Source: Kiritimatiellota bacterium (GTDB taxonomy: Bacteria > Verrucomicrobiota > Lentisphaeria > Oligosphaerales > JAADHN01). Taken from it: 64,000 bases of DNA. Shown in pieces: positions 16,036 through 29,563 of the stretch. The first letter of the stretch is position 1. Every line of letters begins with the position of its first letter. The stretch covers positions 1 through 64,000 of the forward strand of contig JAADHN010000145.1 in the NCBI GenBank assembly GCA_013151865.1. The letters run 5' to 3'. The notes beneath the pieces are model-generated. The model saw only the letters and a list, made by a program, of their open reading frames with translations. It was not told the DNA's origin and made no database searches. Made by a program: the position numbers and the translations under genes.

Positions 16036-16927
16036 GGTTTGACCTCGAAATTGGGTCTGTTACTTTAGAGCCTGCAACAGATTTTACCAGTCGTCTGCAG
16101 CGGTTTTCGCGAACTTCAGGGGGGATCGAGCACGTCCCGCCGTGTCGGCCCACTCGCGTGTGACCGGAAGGGCGCGCACTGCCGGCCCGCGAAATCGAGG
16201 CAGCCGCCTTGTCCGGGCGACGTCGTGCTCTCGCGGCCCCGGCAGGCCGCCCTGCGCTCCCGATCCCGCTGAGCGGGAGAGATGGGCCACCCGAAAGTGT
16301 AGCTGCGATTCGCCGCCGGCGAAGAGCGACAACTCCCGCGGCTCACGCCCCTTTGTGGACGGGCTCAAGCTCGGCCGGGCGCACACTTGGGTGGAACCTG
16401 CGCATCGGCAACTTGCGATCGGCGTTTCCATCCGCGCCGGGAGGCACGGTCCTCCCTTGAGGCGGCGGCAACGGACGGCATGGGCGCCGCGCCCACGCCC
16501 CATCAAAGCCTTGTCGGTCGCAACCCGGTCGGACGCCGGACATTCGAACTCGCGCCCCGATGTTACAAAGCAAAACGAGACCTCTCCGTGTCCCGTGCAG
16601 GAGGTTACGAACGGAAAAAGAATCCGTTTCGCATTGATTCCCCCTGCCAAGCATTGTATTATGCACTATTCGTGCATTGTTCCCTCGGTTCTCTGCCGGG
16701 AAAGCTGTTTGTCCGTCTGCCCCCGGATTCATGTCGGAAGGATCGATGGCGATAGCCGTTCCTCGAACCGGCGCGAGCGACGCGTCGGCTCGTCGTGTGC
16801 GTTCGCGCCTTGCTGACAAACAAGAAAAACGCCTCCTTCATTTGGCCTTTGTTTCCGACGTGAGTCCGGGGCGGGACACCACTCTGATCCCGTATTGATT
16901 CGAAGGGAAAACGGAAGGGGATGGGCA
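16036..16927. other. Gene-free region upstream of the hydrogenase cluster
   Basis: These 892 bp contain no ORF with family motifs; the track entries here have repeat-like Arg/Pro-rich translations. A small hairpin (TCCCGC-TGA-GCGGGA, 16264-16278) and a copy of CCTTTGTGGACGG (from about 16349) are present. The region ends with the promoter candidate at 16634-16677. It looks like decayed sequence plus a long 5' leader for the hydrogenase operon. Confidence 0.5.
16634..16677 (+). promoter_or_regulatory. Sigma-70-type promoter with palindrome at the start site
   Basis: TTGATT and TATTAT are separated by exactly 17 nt, a strong housekeeping-type promoter in otherwise GC-rich DNA. Overlapping the end of the -10 is ATGCAC-N5-GTGCAT (16661-16677), a perfect inverted repeat that could be an operator. 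It lies about 250 bp upstream of the hydrogenase small subunit gene. I saw no sigma-54 site (GG-N10-GC) in a sensible position. Sequence inference only. Confidence 0.5.
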
Positions 16928-17866
16928 ATGTCTACGACCCTTTATTGGCTGCAATGCGGCGGTTGCGGGGGAGACAGCATGTCTCTCCTGGGCTCGGAAT
17001 CCCCTGACTTGGTGGAACTCGTCGAACTGCTCAACTTGGATGTGCTATGGCATCCCTCCCTTTCCAACGGCACTCCGGCAGAGCATCGTCGACTCGTCGA
17101 GGCCATCCTGAACGGGGGGCAGGAACTCGATGTGCTGTGTGTCGAGGGGGCCGTCATCCGGGGACCGGGGGGGACCGGGATGTACGACCTTTGGGATGGC
17201 CGCCCCAAGAAGAACCTGACCGCCAGGCTGGCCGCTCGGGCCCGGTTCGTTGTGGCGGTCGGTACGTGCGCCAGTTTCGGCGGGATTCCCGGCATCGGCG
17301 AAGGTGAAGCCACCGGGCTCCAGTTCCATCGAGAAACGCCTGGCGGGTTCCTGGGCCGGGAATTCAGGTCGAGGGCTCAGTTGCCGGTCGTCAATCTGCC
17401 GGGCTGCCCCTGCCATTGCAGCGTCCTCGCGGGAAGCTTGTCGGCCCTCGTGCGAGGACGTCGCCTTGTTTTGAACCAGTACAATGCACCCGTTGAATGG
17501 TATGGCCTTTTTGTGCACCAGGGATGCGTTCGGAACGAATACCACGAGTATCGGGTCGAGGAACACGAGTTTGGGGAAAAGGGGTGCCTTTTCTTCCACT
17601 TGGGGTGTCGCGGTCCTCTGGCCCACGGCCCCTGCAACAAACTGCTGTGGAACCGGCGCAGTTCCAAGACGCGAGTGGGGGTTCCCTGCGCCGGGTGCAC
17701 CATGCCGGACTTCCCCCATGAATACCCCTTCTTCGTTACACCCAATATCGCCGACATTCCGCTCGATCTGCCCGAAGGGGTCGACCGTGCCCATTACCTG
17801 GCCTACAAGGGCATGGCGGCCGCGGCCGCACCCGAAAGGCTCAGGCAACGGAAGACCTTTGTGTAG
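16928..17866 (+). CDS. [NiFe] hydrogenase small subunit, cytoplasmic (HupU/HoxB-like)
   Basis: This 312-residue iron-sulfur subunit passes electrons to or from the [NiFe] site. There is no twin-arginine signal peptide: the mature motif begins at once (YWLQCGGCGG, C10 and C13). Proximal cluster ligands continue with GTCASFGG (C114) and LPGCPCHC (C159). The distal and medial cluster ligands are all present: H197, C200, C220, C227, C236, C254 and C257. A missing signal peptide and this compact length fit group 2 enzymes, including the H2-sensing HupU/HoxB proteins. ATG 16928 is preceded by GGAAGGGG; the track start at 16895 adds 11 unlikely residues. The large subunit starts 18 bp downstream. 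The link to kinases suggests sensing rather than energy metabolism. Confidence 0.92.
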   Translation: MSTTLYWLQCGGCGGDSMSLLGSESPDLVELVELLNLDVLWHPSLSNGTPAEHRRLVEAILNGGQELDVLCVEGAVIRGPGGTGMYDLWDGRPKKNLTARLAARARFVVAVGTCASFGGIPGIGEGEATGLQFHRETPGGFLGREFRSRAQLPVVNLPGCPCHCSVLAGSLSALVRGRRLVLNQYNAPVEWYGLFVHQGCVRNEYHEYRVEEHEFGEKGCLFFHLGCRGPLAHGPCNKLLWNRRSSKTRVGVPCAGCTMPDFPHEYPFFVTPNIADIPLDLPEGVDRAHYLAYKGMAAAAAPERLRQRKTFV

Positions 17867-17884
17867 TTCGGAGGTACGCCCCTT

Positions 17885-19423
17885 ATGGCTCCCCCCAAGA
17901 AACTCAACGTCCCCCTGAACCGGGTTGAAGGCGATCTGGAAATCCGGGTCGAGATCGAGGACGGCATGGTCACGGATGCTTGGTGTTCGGGCACGATGTT
18001 CCGTGGCTTCGAAAGAATCCTGGTCGGGCGCGGGGCCCTTGACGGACTGGTGATCACCCCACGGATTTGCGGTATTTGCGGCACTTGCCATCTCACCGCC
18101 GCCAGCCGGGCACTCGACATGATTGCCGACGTGACTCCACCCCCAAATGCCACGCGGGTCCGCAATGTGGCCCTGATGTCCGAACACATCCAAAGCGATG
18201 TGCGACAAACTTTCCTCATGTTCGCACCGGACCTTGCGAACCCGGCGTACGAGGGTTGCGACCTTTACCCTGAAATCCGAAGACGGTATGAGCCTTTCAA
18301 GGGCGAGACGGTACTTGAAGTCATCAGAGAGACAAAGAAAGTCCCGGAGGTCATCGCGATCCTCGGCGGGCAGTGGCCGCACTCGTCTTACATGGTCCCG
18401 GGAGGTGTCGTGTCGTTGCCGACAAACGGCGACATCACGTCATGTCAATTCATCATCGAACGTTACCGACGATGGTACGAGAAACGGATCTTGGGCTGTT
18501 CCCTGGACCGCTGGCGTCGGATCCGCACCGCGGCAGACCTGGATGCGTGGCTCGAAGAGCGGGACGAACACCGCCAAAGCGATTTGGGGCTCCTGATCCG
18601 ATTCAGTCGGACTGTCGGGCTGACGAAGATCGGGCGTGGACATGCCAACTTCGTCAGCTACGGGGCCCTGGACACCCCGGACGAACGGCAGCCGGCCAAG
18701 CCGGGAAGCGATGGTTTTTTCATCCCCGCCGGGTTCGTCCGGGGTGGAGTGCCCCATCCGTTCGACCAACAACGGATTGCCGAACACGTGGCCCACTCCT
18801 GGTTCGAAGATTACGATGGCGGGCGGCACCCCGCTGCAGGCGAAACAACGCCTTACGCGACCGGCGACGAAGGGCGGAAATACTCCTGGGCCAAGGCACC
18901 CCGCTTTGACGGACTGCCGGCCGAAACCGGGCCGTTGGCCGAGAAAATCGTGGAGGGCGACCCGCTCTTTACGGACCTGCTCGAGCAGGCCGGCCCCAAC
19001 GCCTTCCTGCGCCAATTGGCCCGTGCGGTGCGACCGGTCAGTCTCATTCCACAAATCATCACCTGGCTTTCCGAAATCGACGTGAACGAACCTTTCTACG
19101 CGACGCCCGGAGAAATCGCCGCTGGGGAGGGTTATGGCCTGACGCAGGCCGCCCGGGGGGCCCTGGGGCATTGGGTCCGGATCGTTGACGGCAGAATCGC
19201 CCATTACCAAATCATCACCCCCACGGCATGGCATGCCTCCCCCCGCGATTCCGCCGGCATCAGGGGACCGATAGAAGAAGCTTTGATCGGGACCCCCGTC
19301 CGGGACGCGGACAATCCGATAGAACTTGGACACGTAATCCGGTCGTTCGACCCGTGTCTGGTGTGCACCGTTCACACGGTCGGGCGCGGACAGCTTTTCG
19401 GACGATCGACACTGGATGTCTGA
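17885..19423 (+). CDS. [NiFe] hydrogenase large subunit (HupV/HoxC-like, group 2)
   Basis: This 512-residue catalytic subunit binds the NiFe(CN)2CO centre. The N-terminal motif is RICGICGTCH (C62, C65) and the C-terminal motif is DPCLVCTVH (C491, C494, H497), giving all four nickel ligands. After H497 there is a 15-residue tail (TVGRGQLFGRSTLDV) that a maturation protease would remove; the next gene encodes such a protease. The overall sequence (NRVEGDLEIRVEIEDG, FRGFERILVGR) resembles HupV/HoxC and related group 2 enzymes. Textbook regulatory hydrogenases end at the His, so the tail is notable. It is spaced for co-expression with the small subunit and the protease. HypA-F maturation genes are not in the window. 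Confidence 0.93.
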   Translation: MAPPKKLNVPLNRVEGDLEIRVEIEDGMVTDAWCSGTMFRGFERILVGRGALDGLVITPRICGICGTCHLTAASRALDMIADVTPPPNATRVRNVALMSEHIQSDVRQTFLMFAPDLANPAYEGCDLYPEIRRRYEPFKGETVLEVIRETKKVPEVIAILGGQWPHSSYMVPGGVVSLPTNGDITSCQFIIERYRRWYEKRILGCSLDRWRRIRTAADLDAWLEERDEHRQSDLGLLIRFSRTVGLTKIGRGHANFVSYGALDTPDERQPAKPGSDGFFIPAGFVRGGVPHPFDQQRIAEHVAHSWFEDYDGGRHPAAGETTPYATGDEGRKYSWAKAPRFDGLPAETGPLAEKIVEGDPLFTDLLEQAGPNAFLRQLARAVRPVSLIPQIITWLSEIDVNEPFYATPGEIAAGEGYGLTQAARGALGHWVRIVDGRIAHYQIITPTAWHASPRDSAGIRGPIEEALIGTPVRDADNPIELGHVIRSFDPCLVCTVHTVGRGQLFGRSTLDV

Positions 19424-19425
19424 CA

Positions 19426-19878
19426 GTGAGACGGATCATCGGAATCGGCAGTCGGTTCGTCCCCCGGGATGCGGCAGGCCCCAAGGTATGCGAACAGTTG
19501 CTCGCAGGGACGCTCCCGGACGAAATCGAGGTGATCGACGGCGGCCTGGGAGGAATCGACCTGCTCCGATTCATGGAAAACACCGAACGAGTCGTTTTCG
19601 TGGACAGTGTCGAGGGTTTCGCGCCGCCGGGACAACTCGTAATTCTCACGGCCGGGGAAATTGCGACGGCAGCGTCGGGGTACGGCCATGAGGCAGGCTT
19701 GCCGTATCTGGTGCGCGTCCTGCCCGAGGTCTGCCCGCCGCCTTGTCCCGAAGTGCTTCTGGTAGGGGTGGAAGGCCCACCGAGCGACCGACTCATCCAC
19801 TCGGCGGCACGCCTGGCGTTGAGAGTGGCTCTCGACGACAAACCGTATGGGCAGAAGACGCGGGGATGTCCCGCCTGA
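19426..19878 (+). CDS. Hydrogenase maturation endopeptidase (M52/HycI family)
   Basis: This 150-residue protein is a nickel-dependent-processing protease that trims the large subunit C-terminus after metal insertion. It starts GTG 19426 (VRRIIGIGSRFVPRDAAG), two bases after the large subunit stop, so translation is probably coupled. Family features: the N-terminal GIGS-RD-G motif, the VFVDSVEGFAPPG segment with the central Asp, and a GHEAGLPYL segment with the His expected to contact nickel. The track entry starting at 19228 is an upstream extension in the large subunit's shadow frame. The match between this gene and the tail on the large subunit supports the idea that this hydrogenase is cleaved. 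Confidence 0.88.
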   Translation: MRRIIGIGSRFVPRDAAGPKVCEQLLAGTLPDEIEVIDGGLGGIDLLRFMENTERVVFVDSVEGFAPPGQLVILTAGEIATAASGYGHEAGLPYLVRVLPEVCPPPCPEVLLVGVEGPPSDRLIHSAARLALRVALDDKPYGQKTRGCPA

Positions 19879-19890
19879 GGAGAAACAACG

Positions 19891-21717
19891 GTGTCAAGAG
19901 GTGGTGAGAAACGGTCCGTCGAAGAACTGGCAGCGGAGAACGCGCTGCTGAACCGGGAGGTGCGTGTCGCCCGCGAGGCTTCGGAAATAACTGCCGCCCT
20001 TGTCGTCGAACAGTTCCAGAAAATGGAGGAAATCCTGCGCAGACTGGAAGATACCGTTGCGGCCGAGCGTGAGCTGCAGAAAAAACTGAGCGACCAACTC
20101 CGCCAAGCCGAGATTCGGGAACGGAAGCTCAGCGAGGCGCGAATGGCCGCAGACGTGGCGAATCGCGCCAAGAGCAGTTTCCTCGCCAACATGAGCCACG
20201 AACTGCGCACGCCGCTGAACGCCATCATCGGCTACAGCGAAATGCTCCAGGAAGACGCCGAGGACTTGGGACAGAAAAGTTTCATCCCCGACTTGAAGAA
20301 AATCCATGCTGCCGGAAAACACCTTCTGGATTTGATCAGCGAGGTGTTGGATTTGTCCAAAATCGAGGCCGGGAAAATCGAATTGGTGCTCGAACAGGCC
20401 GAGATCAGGTCGGTGATCGACGGGATCGTGGCAACCATCCAACCCCTCATCGCCAAGAACGATAACCGGCTCCAAGTGGATGTTGCCGATGACCTCGGCA
20501 GCATGAAAACCGACATAACCCGATTGCGTCAATGCGTTTTCAACCTCTTGAGCAATGCCGGCAAATTCACCAGGCACGGCGTGATCGCTCTGCAGGCGCG
20601 TCGAGAGAACATTGACGGAGTGGAATGGCTCAAGGTCGCCGTCTCCGATACGGGCATCGGTATGACGGAGGAGCAGTTGGGGAAAATATTCGAGGCATTC
20701 TCGCAGGCGGACGCCACCACGAGCCGGGACTATGGAGGTACCGGGCTGGGACTGACGATCACGCGGCGCTTATGCCAAATGATGGGCGGAGATGTAACAG
20801 TCGAAAGCACGCCGGGCAAGGGATCGACTTTCACAATCCTGCTGCCCGTGTCCCCGTCTGCCCCTCCGGGCTCCGGCGCCGTCATCGACGCCGGTCCCGG
20901 CAAGACCGCGGAGGGCGCGCTTGATGCCGCCCCGGTCCCCCTGAACGCCGTTCTGGTCATTGACGATGAAGACTCGGCACGAGAACTGATTACCCGGCAG
21001 TTGACCAAGACAGGCCTGCATGTCGTCGCGGCCGCGGGCGGCGAGGAAGGATTACGTCTCGCCAGAGAGCTGCATCCGGTCGCCATCACACTGGATATCG
21101 CCATGCCGCACATGGATGGCTGGGCCGTGCTCACTGCCCTCAAGGCCGATCCGCAGACGGCCGACATTCCCGTCATCATCTGCTCGGTCGAAAAAAAGGA
21201 GAACATGGGCTTTGCATTGGGGGCGGTCGAATACCTGACGAAACCCATTGACCGGGAACGACTGACGAAGACCCTCGACGCGCTCAAGCCACGTGCCAAC
21301 GACAATCAGGTATTGATCGTCGAAGACGACCCGTCCACAAGGCAGTTGCTCGTCCATCTGTTGCGCAAAGAAGGCTGGACTGTCAGTGAAGCGGAGAATG
21401 GCCGAGTCGCCCTCGACCGAATCGCCGAGAGCATTCCCGGACTGATCCTCTTGGACCTGATGATGCCCGAAATGGACGGATTCGAGTTTGTGGCACAACT
21501 GCAGAAGCGCGAGCAGTGGCGCCGCATTCCTGTGATCGTGATCACCGCCGTAGACCTGACCGCCGCCGATAAAGAGCGACTGAACGGACATGTCAGCAGG
21601 ATACTCCGGAAAGGGAGCTTCAAACTGGAAGATGTACTGCGTGAAGTCCGTGACTTGCTGGACCGAATCGTCCCGAAGCCGCCCACGGCCGGGGTCGGAC
21701 CGGCCGCCACAGGCTGA
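19891..21717 (+). CDS. Soluble hybrid histidine kinase with two receiver domains
   Basis: This 608-residue cytoplasmic kinase starts at GTG 19891, 12 bp after the protease stop, with TGAGGAGA upstream. It lacks membrane segments and PAS or GAF domains. Layout: N-terminal coiled coil (about 8-95), HisKA domain with H103 in [20 protein letters not shown], HATPase with N box, DTGIGM and GGTGLGLTI (about 210-325), receiver 1 (about 350-470; [12 protein letters not shown]) and receiver 2 (about 472-590; [13 protein letters not shown]). With no sensory domain of its own, its input may come by contact with another protein through the coiled coil; the hydrogenase encoded just upstream is the obvious candidate, as for HoxJ/HupT with HoxBC/HupUV. 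That pairing is inferred from gene order. Confidence 0.93.
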
Positions 21718-21742
21718 TGGGACCGAGTGTGGGAGGAGATCA

Positions 21743-22105
21743 ATGGCGAAAATCTTGCTCGTCGAAGACAATGAGATGAACCGGGACATGCTCTCCAGAA
21801 GACTCAAGCGACGGGGGTACGATGTCCTCATGGCGTTTGACGGCCGGGAAGGCGTCCGGATGGCGCGCAGCGAAGCGCCGGACCTGATCCTGATGGACAT
21901 GAGCCTTCCGATCCTGGACGGCTGGGAGGCCACGCGCCAAATCAAGGCGGACCCTGCGATCAGTTCCATCCCCGTCATAGCCCTGACCGCCCATGCCATG
22001 CCGGGCGACCGCGAGAAGGCCGTCGAGGCCGGATGCGACGACTACGACACCAAGCCGATCGAACTGGTTCGCCTGCTCGAGAAAATTCAGGCGTTGCTGG
22101 TTTGA
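21743..22105 (+). CDS. Single-domain response regulator
   Basis: This 120-residue protein is a lone receiver domain (MAKILLVEDNEMNRD; phosphoacceptor in LILMDMSLPILDGWE; conserved Thr/Ala in VIALTAHAM; Lys in DYDTKPIE). The sequence resembles DivK and the receivers of hybrid kinases. It carries no output domain, so it should act as a phosphate shuttle or by protein contact. ATG 21743 follows GGGAGGAGATCA, a strong ribosome site, 25 bp after the first kinase. The track entry from 21590 is an upstream extension. Its place between two kinases suggests a step in a relay joining them. Confidence 0.93.
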   Translation: MAKILLVEDNEMNRDMLSRRLKRRGYDVLMAFDGREGVRMARSEAPDLILMDMSLPILDGWEATRQIKADPAISSIPVIALTAHAMPGDREKAVEAGCDDYDTKPIELVRLLEKIQALLV

Positions 22106-22272: not shown

Positions 22273-24531
22273 ATGAAGAGCGACGACCTAGTCCCCCATG
22301 CAGCAGAAAAGCGTTCGTCCGGGGACGCTTCGGCCCGCAACCCCCGAGAATTGGACGCCAAGCGGGCCGTTATTGCTCACATCCGGCACGAACTGCGCAC
22401 TCCCATCAACGGCATCATCGGGTACAGCGAGATGCTGTTGGAGGATGCAGCCGCAGAAGGCTGGGACACGATCACCGAAGATCTCACCAGGGTCCTCAGC
22501 GCCGGGCAGGAGCTTCTTTCTCTCGTCAATGAACTACTCGGGGCCCGGGAGCTGGCAGAGCAGACCGACCTCGATGTGGCCGAACTCGGCCGGAGCATAC
22601 GGCACGCCCTGATTACACCCATCAGCGCCGTCACGGGGTATAGCGAACTGCTCATGGAGGACGCGGAAGACACCGCATTCGCCGGGATTATTCCGGACCT
22701 CCGAAGGATCCATTCTGCCGGCAAGAAACTTGCCGCCCTGATCGACGATATCGTCAGTTTCTCGATGACTGCCGAAATCGCACCGGATTCCGGTGTGTCC
22801 GCCGGAGTGAGCGTTGTCCTTGACACGGTGAGTATGATCCGGGCACTGGCCGAAAACCGAACGGGGGCCGACCGGGTCGAATGCGGGTCGCTTCTCATCG
22901 TGGACGACAACGAAACCAACCGGGACCTCCTGGCGCGCCGACTGGAACGGTGCGGGCACCAAGTGGCCGCGGCATCCAACGGCCGCCGGGCGCTTGAAAT
23001 GTTGCGAGAACAGCCGTTCGACCTCCTGCTGCTCGACGTGATGATGCCCGAAATGAACGGGTTCGAAGTCCTCCAGCACCTTAAGCACGATCCCGAGCTG
23101 CGTCACATCCCGGTCATCATGATTTCGGCCCTGGACGAAATGGACAGCGTTGTCCGATGCATCGAAGCCGGGGCCGAAGATTACCTGCCGAAACCTTTCA
23201 ATCCAGTACTCTTGCACGCCCGAATCGGCGCAGGCTTGGCAAAAAAACGGTTGCACGATATCGAACGGGAGTACGCGAAACGACTCCAGACGCAATGGGA
23301 GAGCGCCAAACGGCTCGAGGACAACTTGCGGAAAGTGGTCCGCTACAGCCTTCAGAAACCCCCGGAGGAAATGCTGGCCGAATCACTCCGCATCCTCATT
23401 GCCTTGTCCGAAGCGCAAATGGGCGCAATCCTCGAAGAGGACGGCCCCAACCTCCGGTTCCTCTGCGCCAGCGTCCCGGACTTGATCGGTGCCGTGGTCC
23501 CATGGGAAAGCGTTGCAGGAGAGACGTTCACCCGGAATGTCATAACCTATGCCCCCGCCCGCGACGAACTCCGCCACTACGGACCGGCCGGCGAGTCACA
23601 CACCAATCAAGTCAAGTGCCTCCTCAGCGTGCCCATCCCACGCGTCATTTCCGCGCGCCGGACGCAGGCCTCGGCTGGGAGTGCAGGCGTATTGCAGCTC
23701 TTGTTCGCTCGAAACGCCCTGGCCCAGTTCGATCTCGCCCAAGGACCGCTGCGGCTCGGGATGGACCTCTCCGGCAGGCATGACTCCGAGGACCGCCTGT
23801 TGCAGGAACTCTTCATGGTGCTGCCCATGATCTCCCTGGGCATGGAAATCCAGAAGCTGCGTCAAACCTCGTATCAGGCCATCCATGAGCTGAAGAACAA
23901 GCTGATCGCGGCACAGTCGTGGACGAATTGCCTGAAAGAAGACTTGGAGGCGGTCGCGGCCGAGGCGCTCGGGGACGAGGACGTCATGGAAGACATCAAA
24001 CTCGTGGAGGAGGCAGTCACCTCTGGATACAACCTGGCCGTGGGCTACTTGCAGTTCACGAAAATCTACAATCCGCATTTCGAGGTGTGCCGAATCAACA
24101 CAGTACTGAAGGAAGTGGCCACGGACATCAAAGCTTTTGCCGACAACGTGGGTGGGCCCGGTTCCGTGTCCGTCGTGGTGGATCCCGGGCAGGCTCTCCC
24201 CAAGCGACAACTTGACCCGGCGCAATTGAAAATGGCCTTCTTCAACATCGGTAAGAACGCGGTGGAAGCCCTCATCGAGCACGGCACGGAGAGTCCGACC
24301 ATCACCCTCCTGTCGCAACTCCGTGACGACCGAATCGTCGTGACGATTGCCGACAACGGGAAGGGCATGCCGAAAGCAGTTGCAGAAAACCTGTTCGTCC
24401 CGTTCACCACCCAGAAAACCGGCGGGACCGGACTGGGCCTGACCATCACAAAGAAGATCGTCGATATGCACGGCGGCAAGATTTCGTGCGAAAGCGACTC
24501 AACCGGGACGCGCTTCCAGATTCTTCTGTGA
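22273..24531 (+). CDS. Hybrid histidine kinase with three H-box segments, REC, GAF-like and one HATPase
   Basis: This 752-residue soluble protein starts at ATG 22273 (CGAGGAAACACG upstream); the track entry from 22033 overlaps the response regulator gene and is rejected. Layout: HisKA-type segment with H39 (HIRHELRTPINGIIGYS); a second, similar segment with H111 (SIRHALITPISAVTGYS) in which the usual Glu after His is Ala; receiver domain (about 205-322, D255 in LLLLDVMMPEMNG); a helical linker; a GAF-like region (about 360-530); a third H-box-like segment with H538 (YQAIHELKNKLIAAQSW); and one HATPase ([27 protein letters not shown]). No DNA-binding output. Three possible phosphate-accepting helices with one ATPase is unusual. 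It probably ends the relay beginning at the hydrogenase. Confidence 0.88.
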   Translation: MKSDDLVPHAAEKRSSGDASARNPRELDAKRAVIAHIRHELRTPINGIIGYSEMLLEDAAAEGWDTITEDLTRVLSAGQELLSLVNELLGARELAEQTDLDVAELGRSIRHALITPISAVTGYSELLMEDAEDTAFAGIIPDLRRIHSAGKKLAALIDDIVSFSMTAEIAPDSGVSAGVSVVLDTVSMIRALAENRTGADRVECGSLLIVDDNETNRDLLARRLERCGHQVAAASNGRRALEMLREQPFDLLLLDVMMPEMNGFEVLQHLKHDPELRHIPVIMISALDEMDSVVRCIEAGAEDYLPKPFNPVLLHARIGAGLAKKRLHDIEREYAKRLQTQWESAKRLEDNLRKVVRYSLQKPPEEMLAESLRILIALSEAQMGAILEEDGPNLRFLCASVPDLIGAVVPWESVAGETFTRNVITYAPARDELRHYGPAGESHTNQVKCLLSVPIPRVISARRTQASAGSAGVLQLLFARNALAQFDLAQGPLRLGMDLSGRHDSEDRLLQELFMVLPMISLGMEIQKLRQTSYQAIHELKNKLIAAQSWTNCLKEDLEAVAAEALGDEDVMEDIKLVEEAVTSGYNLAVGYLQFTKIYNPHFEVCRINTVLKEVATDIKAFADNVGGPGSVSVVVDPGQALPKRQLDPAQLKMAFFNIGKNAVEALIEHGTESPTITLLSQLRDDRIVVTIADNGKGMPKAVAENLFVPFTTQKTGGTGLGLTITKKIVDMHGGKISCESDSTGTRFQILL

Positions 24532-26850: not shown

Positions 26851-29563
<2,713 letters not shown>

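Follow-up and report, generated by a model that had tools for sequence, protein, structure and literature searches.

Rec-controlled histidine kinases, or hybrid response regulators, have LvrB of Leptospira as their prototype (PMC13269768), and P0001, the protein described here, resembles it in that the receiver lies N-terminal to the DHp-CA kinase core and is joined to it by a helix. A likeness of another kind is to Spo0B, ChpT and PhyT: here too, DHp-type His hairpins lack a working kinase ATPase and may exchange phosphate with receivers. These proteins are dimers with a degenerate ATPase domain. ChpT is described as dimeric and kinase-like (PMC3433190).

P0001 is encoded in a window of 64,000 nucleotides, which is the whole stretch analysed. 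As with LvrB, an upstream hybrid kinase is its likely input. To the LvrB layout P0001 adds a GAF-like domain between the receiver and the DHp, plus two ATPase-less DHp hairpins before the receiver. Compared with Spo0B, ChpT and PhyT, its front module has no ATPase remnant, and the receiver stands directly after the DHp hairpins. Both hairpins belong to one polypeptide, in which a receiver and an output are fused to them. REC-output proteins (cyclase, SpoIIE) occur in the same three-gene neighbourhood as P0001, with receivers up to 67% similar; they have no DHp hairpins, whereas the output of P0001 is itself a kinase. Stand-alone GAF-like/HELKNK kinases of about 410 aa share the C-terminal half of P0001 but are themselves without the DHp-DHp-REC front. 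Nor does P0001 have the classical hybrid kinase layout, as its receiver (residues 205-322) precedes the kinase core (507-752).

The open-access literature yielded no description of tandem HisKA/DHp domains or of HATPase-less HisKA-REC outputs. All parts of P0001 are known; within the open literature covered, their assembly is new. The preliminary description of this locus knew of no protein with this order; the DHp-DHp-REC-to-kinase arrangement is indeed rare, being found in two genomes, but it is a shuffle of known modules.

Domain order and the C-terminal kinase half

The open frame at 22273-24531 on the forward strand encodes 752 aa (coding part 22273-24528, with the stop codon ending at 24531), and its ATG is directly preceded by a GAGGA-type ribosome site. 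An upstream ATG at 22033 (832 aa) was rejected as the start because the longer frame would overlap the single-domain receiver gene and orthologues begin at about the 22273 position. The layout is DHp1 - DHp2 - REC - coiled coil - GAF-like - DHp3 - CA, and Pfam recognises two HisKA stretches, the receiver at 208-318 and the HATPase domain at 648-751. In a genome-wide HisKA (PF00512) search with segments scored separately, DHp1 reached 50.6 bits and DHp2 27.8 bits; both exceed the curated cut-off of 26.9 bits and are therefore more than chance matches. The features of P0001 are:

22273..24531, + strand: whole protein P0001 (open frame, Pfam, HisKA search, orthologue in genome G001 at L104:4886-7162)
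22342..22557, + strand: DHp1 hairpin, residues 24-95 (Pfam HisKA 50.6 bits; helices H24-62 and H65-95)
22387..22389, + strand: codon of H39, phospho-acceptor in RHELRTP of DHp1 (His retained in nearly all relatives)
22576..22779, + strand: DHp2 hairpin, residues 102-169, degenerate in the family (Pfam HisKA 27.8 bits; helices H102-132 and H137-169)
22603..22605, + strand: codon of H111 in RHALITP of DHp2, Gln in the orthologue (alignment with relatives)
22885..23238, + strand: receiver with phospho-acceptor D255 (Pfam Response_reg 1.9e-31; invariant alignment columns)
23239..23355, + strand: coiled-coil signalling helix 3' of the receiver, about residues 323-361 (helix H2-40 in the model of the C-terminal half)
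23359..23760, + strand: GAF-like alpha/beta domain, about residues 363-496 (secondary structure of the predicted model alone)
23791..24063, + strand: DHp3 of the kinase core, phospho-acceptor H538 in HELKNK (invariant in stand-alone relatives; model helices 186-240 and 248-276)
24205..24528, + strand: HATPase (CA) domain with N, G1 and G2 boxes intact (Pfam 7.7e-21; VIA-align Z about 20 to HK853 and DivL)

The receiver is complete, with the DD, S/T and K switch residues all present. The alpha/beta domain between the receiver and DHp3 looks GAF-like in the predicted model; it gave no match in the Pfam search or the PDB sequence search. The preliminary description had listed three histidine boxes, one receiver between the second and third, and a single terminal HATPase. 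H39 in RHELRTP, H111 in RHALITP and H538 in HELKN lie exactly where it had placed them, and Pfam agrees on the receiver and the HATPase. It had overlooked the coiled coil and the GAF-like domain before H538, and the boxes are not equal kinase boxes: the first two belong to an ATPase-less receiver module and the third to a complete kinase.

A search of 59 related genomes found one full-length orthologue (60% identity, genome G001, L104:4886-7162), which comes from another family of the same order and rules out misassembly or accidental fusion of P0001. In the same search, residues ~340-752 matched stand-alone proteins of ~410 aa, which are present in eight genomes of the same order besides G001 and P0001's own genome, with further relatives from Lentisphaerae, Verrucomicrobia and Deltaproteobacteria records. 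The paralogue of the C-terminal half in P0001's own genome is 49% identical. Stand-alone GAF-like/HELKNK kinases of the same order (L002, L014-L022, L024-L027) are 39-57% identical to the C-terminal 400 residues of P0001, and alignment of this family shows H538, the N box FFN..KN and the G boxes DNG.G.P and GG.GLGL to be invariant.

The model of the C-terminal half consists of a DHp hairpin and an ATPase domain and matches the kinase cores of HK853 and DivL (VIA-align Z about 20); LvrB (8vc9) is among its Foldseek matches. The segment around H538 has no Pfam HisKA match, though its fold, a two-helix hairpin in the model, and the adjoining ATPase agree. With H538 and the N and G boxes invariant and a model like HK853 and DivL, the C-terminal half represents a complete kinase that was once independent.

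The front module, its relatives and their residue signature

The N-terminal half of P0001 is, judged by sequence comparison, a portable ATPase-less module made of DHp1, a degenerate DHp2 and a receiver. A first profile, built from three front modules, retrieved more such proteins in Verrucomicrobiota, and a second profile retrieved further members in Desulfobacterota, Methylomirabilota and Verrucomicrobiota, so that the approximately 30 relatives are sampled mainly from these groups. Most have tandem DHp (about 25 members) and some a single DHp. The outputs fused to the module are a guanylate/adenylate cyclase, a SpoIIE phosphatase, a Ser/Thr kinase, an HD_5 domain or nothing recognised, and an HATPase in the same chain occurs only in P0001 and its orthologue. 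As the relatives carry the module without a histidine-kinase ATPase, the counterpart of H39 works without an HATPase in its own chain.

The gene directly before the P0001 orthologue in the G001 operon (L104:2934-4844) encodes a HisKA-degenerate HisKA-REC-Ser/Thr kinase; this operon holds two copies of the front module, differently outfitted. One Desulfobacterota member with an HD_5 output (L202:5007-6599) has the reversed order, with hairpin 1 degenerate and RHDLRNP in hairpin 2. A REC-Ser/Thr kinase relative (L214:4357-6213) has apparently lost the DHp1 His, or its start is misplaced. Most DHp1 group apart from kinase DHp in a domain tree, which has few columns and long DHp2 branches and resolves no single origin; on the same grounds, an origin of DHp1 as a copy of the neighbouring kinase's DHp was not retained.

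An alignment of 30 modules shows the DHp1 His throughout, with L214 as the one apparent exception. Among the roughly 25 tandem members, just three (P0001, G748 and the Ser/Thr-kinase protein of G001) carry a His in DHp2; the position reads RQALSP in P0001's orthologue and RRAM, RDNL, RGAL etc. elsewhere. With His in so few members and Gln in the orthologue, H111 does not qualify as a conserved phospho-site.

ATPase-less DHp segments with an H motif were compared with ATPase-linked HisKA domains from the same loci. Arg at H-1 is found in 34/34 of the former and 0/105 of the latter, the acid at H+1 in 22/34 and 105/105, and T/N at H+4 is kept in 33/34 ATPase-less segments, in a sample in which the RH-LRTP motif of the search profiles favours His-keeping members and the relatives are akin, so that the counts are not independent. 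Clustering at 65% identity (22 versus 41 sequences) leaves Arg at 22/22 versus 0/41 and the acid at 17/22 versus 41/41. DHp1 of P0001 itself retains the acid E40 and the whole H-E-x-x-T.

Mutagenesis of CrdS, two relatives and HK853 has shown that only kinase activity depends on the acid and only phosphatase activity on T/N (PMC3510030). Read against those mutants, the ATPase-less DHp sequences fit a relaxed kinase function with a kept phosphatase residue (K-minus P-plus), and the residue pattern fits kinase-less DHp domains that may still do chemistry with receivers. Impairment of the second segment had been proposed from its Ala at H+1. Impairment as such fits the comparative data, but the decisive loss is that of the His itself across the family. 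Loss at H+1 does not mark out the second box, since segment 1 of relatives often shows it too (HALRTP, HTLRTP, HKLRTP, HQLRTP), and the suggested loss of phosphatase function does not follow from it, as the H+1 acid is required for the kinase and H+4 T/N for the phosphatase (PMC3510030), and the T is kept.

Residues 1-200 were modelled with AlphaFold from one sequence without an alignment (pTM 0.67), which gave two confident hairpins, H24-62/H65-95 and H102-132/H137-169, with pLDDT mostly > 90. The Pfam scores and this model bear out the earlier view of the first two segments as HisKA-like helical hairpins, and the suggested role in phosphotransfer or dimerisation is consistent with the comparative data. 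The nearest PDB shapes over residues 28-168 are single-chain four-helix bundles, namely the designed bundle 8a3k (Z 13.2, 127 residues, 2.6 A) and 1yo7, in which the dimeric ROP protein has been engineered into a single chain (Z 13.5, 115 residues, 2.0 A), a Z of 13 being in the grey zone for helical bundles, which are easy to predict. No DHp or HPt chain was among the matches listed by VIA-align and Foldseek for residues 1-200, which says little for a helical bundle. The model suggests that DHp1 and DHp2 pack against each other within the chain, forming a pseudo-dimer that has a single conserved His.

Gene neighbourhood

P0001 is the third gene of a cassette, after a hybrid kinase and a single receiver, with hydrogenase genes directly upstream of the cassette:

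16895-17866, + strand: [NiFe] hydrogenase small subunit, upstream of the cassette in the same direction
17885-19423, + strand: [NiFe] hydrogenase large subunit, upstream of the cassette in the same direction
19420-19878, + strand: HycI-type protease, 3' of the large subunit
19891..21717, + strand: cassette gene 1, hybrid kinase HisKA-HATPase-REC-REC (Pfam; same gene type beside relatives)
21740..22105, + strand: cassette gene 2, single-domain receiver (Pfam)

Among 28 module genes with sufficient flanking sequence, 24 are accompanied by a HisKA-HATPase-REC-REC kinase no more than 3 kb away on the same strand, usually with a single receiver between. In other phyla the same cassette occurs with a REC-cyclase or REC-SpoIIE protein and no DHp, which suggests that the DHp pair was added to a cassette that already existed. 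Pfam recognised no sensor or membrane domain in the hybrid kinase of the window (19891-21717), whose N terminus (19891-20170) is coiled coil only; the kinase of the orthologous G001 cassette has a HAMP domain (L104:187-2505). A genome-wide Pfam search for HPt domains (PF01627) gave four matches, none of them on this contig.

The hydrogenase genes (16895..19878) and the kinase cassette possibly form one operon. Neither subunit (16895-19423) has an obvious signal peptide. For both, the best match among solved chains is by far to the 'Hydrogenase-2' entries 7utd/7uus (2e-134 for the large subunit, versus about 6e-72 for other solved chains), which we take to be Mycobacterium smegmatis Huc. The large subunit ends in DPCLVCTVH plus 15 residues and is followed by the HycI-type protease gene; group 2b H2 sensors are not known to undergo such processing. 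With a processed-type C terminus and this protease gene, it is doubtful that the adjacent hydrogenase is a classical group 2b H2 sensor. The same genome has a second nickel hydrogenase large-subunit gene (G000:C42:8606-9757). Within the window, 27311-29563 reads as a catalase-peroxidase (KatG) by translation alone.

Proposed mechanism and alternative readings

We consider it somewhat probable that P0001 works as a Rec-controlled histidine kinase in which a kinase-less DHp pair, of phosphatase and/or phosphotransfer type, serves the receiver. It would have arisen when a portable ATPase-less front (DHp1, pseudo-DHp2, receiver) was joined to a GAF-like/kinase protein of the stand-alone kind that the same bacteria commonly have. 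D255 of the receiver would obtain its phosphoryl group from the neighbouring hybrid kinase (19891-21717). DHp1, in a module without an ATPase domain, would not autophosphorylate; it would act through H39 and T43 on the phosphoryl group of the receiver, and perhaps also on the receivers of its partners, as a phosphatase and/or a reversible phosphotransfer site. DHp2 would have lost its catalytic role in the family and would supply the second hairpin. Going by the model, DHp1 and DHp2 probably form one intramolecular four-helix bundle, and one chain would thus make what kinases form as a dimer. Control would run from the state of the receiver through the coiled coil and the GAF-like domain to the DHp3-CA core, which would autophosphorylate on H538.

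This account draws on the separate existence of both halves, the C-terminal one as a kinase with invariant H538 and ATPase motifs and the front module on other outputs without a histidine-kinase ATPase, and on the HisKA-HATPase-REC-REC kinase near 24/28 module genes. It draws further on the His kept in DHp1 and mostly not in DHp2, the H-1/H+1/H+4 pattern, the resemblance of the model of residues 1-200 to single-chain four-helix bundles, and the position of REC upstream of DHp-CA, which is the Rec-controlled layout of LvrB (PMC13269768). Several points pull the other way. With its intact H-E-x-x-T, DHp1 of P0001 could take phosphate in trans from an ATPase domain. P0001 does carry a His at 111, which may have a use in this protein alone; the bundle was modelled from a single sequence with Z in the grey zone; the L214 Ser/Thr-kinase member seems to lack the DHp1 His; and plain REC-output proteins without DHp fill the same cassette in many phyla, so that the DHp is not essential to phosphoryl flow.

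The two activities assigned to DHp1 may also be separated. That it is a relay element only, standing in for the missing HPt in a His-Asp-His-Asp chain from the hybrid kinase through one of its receivers to H39 and D255, as in Spo0B, ChpT and PhyT, seems somewhat unlikely. The window has no HPt (the four in the genome lie on other contigs), the partner kinase has two receivers, H39 is retained while the kinase acid varies freely, and P2CS files HisKA proteins without an HATPase or receiver as phosphotransfer proteins (PMC2716373). Yet cassettes with DHp-less REC-output proteins need no relay step through a DHp, and conservation of T/N at H+4 is unexpected for transfer alone (PMC3510030). That same conservation (33/34), with the kinase acid lost in 12/34, is the K-minus P-plus pattern (PMC3510030) expected if DHp1 is a phosphatase or timer only, dephosphorylating the attached receiver with its His kept for phosphatase chemistry, and its place beside the receiver suits action in cis. 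The near-invariant His fits less well with EnvZ and NtrB, in which the His is largely dispensable for phosphatase activity, and we regard this reading as unlikely. Confidence in these two readings overlaps with that in the main account, which includes both activities.

The remaining readings are further from the data. Trans-phosphorylation, in which DHp1 would pair with the DHp of the neighbouring kinase and have H39 labelled by its ATPase, giving a mixed dimer as input to P0001, gains from the full H-E-x-x-T of DHp1 and its identity of about 40% with the neighbour's HisKA; it is improbable, however, as the autophosphorylation acid is lost in a third of the family, Arg at H-1 occurs in 0/105 ATPase-linked HisKA and the AlphaFold model pairs DHp1 with DHp2. 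We think it equally doubtful that both hairpins are purely structural, that is, dimerisation or spacer helices whose motifs are leftovers: DHp2 is degenerate and fast evolving (long tree branches) and DHp-less relatives work without it, but in DHp1 the H, T/N and P are conserved across several phyla although the positions around them vary. Least credible of all is the original proposal that three His boxes in one chain are all served by the single C-terminal ATPase. P0001 does have a His in each box; the relatives that share its front module are without any HATPase, though, the stand-alone kinase half has H538 only, and H111 is Gln in the orthologue.

The find is at the level of a family that combines an Arg-marked, ATPase-less, often tandem DHp with a receiver and interchangeable outputs, P0001 being a rare member with a kinase as output. 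More tentatively, two tandem hairpins, one with and one without His and with Arg at H-1, may constitute a widespread undescribed class of DHp, an intramolecular pseudo-dimer that works with a single His as a phosphotransfer/phosphatase unit and gates exchangeable outputs, a further histidine kinase among them.

If this is right, it would be a common way to equip a response regulator with its own kinase-less histidine domain, and the Arg before the His would be a one-residue mark that tells such domains from kinase DHp. Database pipelines may call such proteins incomplete kinases or plain regulators, so that many genomes may contain an unnoticed phosphorelay or shut-off step. As a natural single-chain DHp, the tandem of one His hairpin and one blank would further lend itself to studying the role of the second subunit in DHp chemistry.
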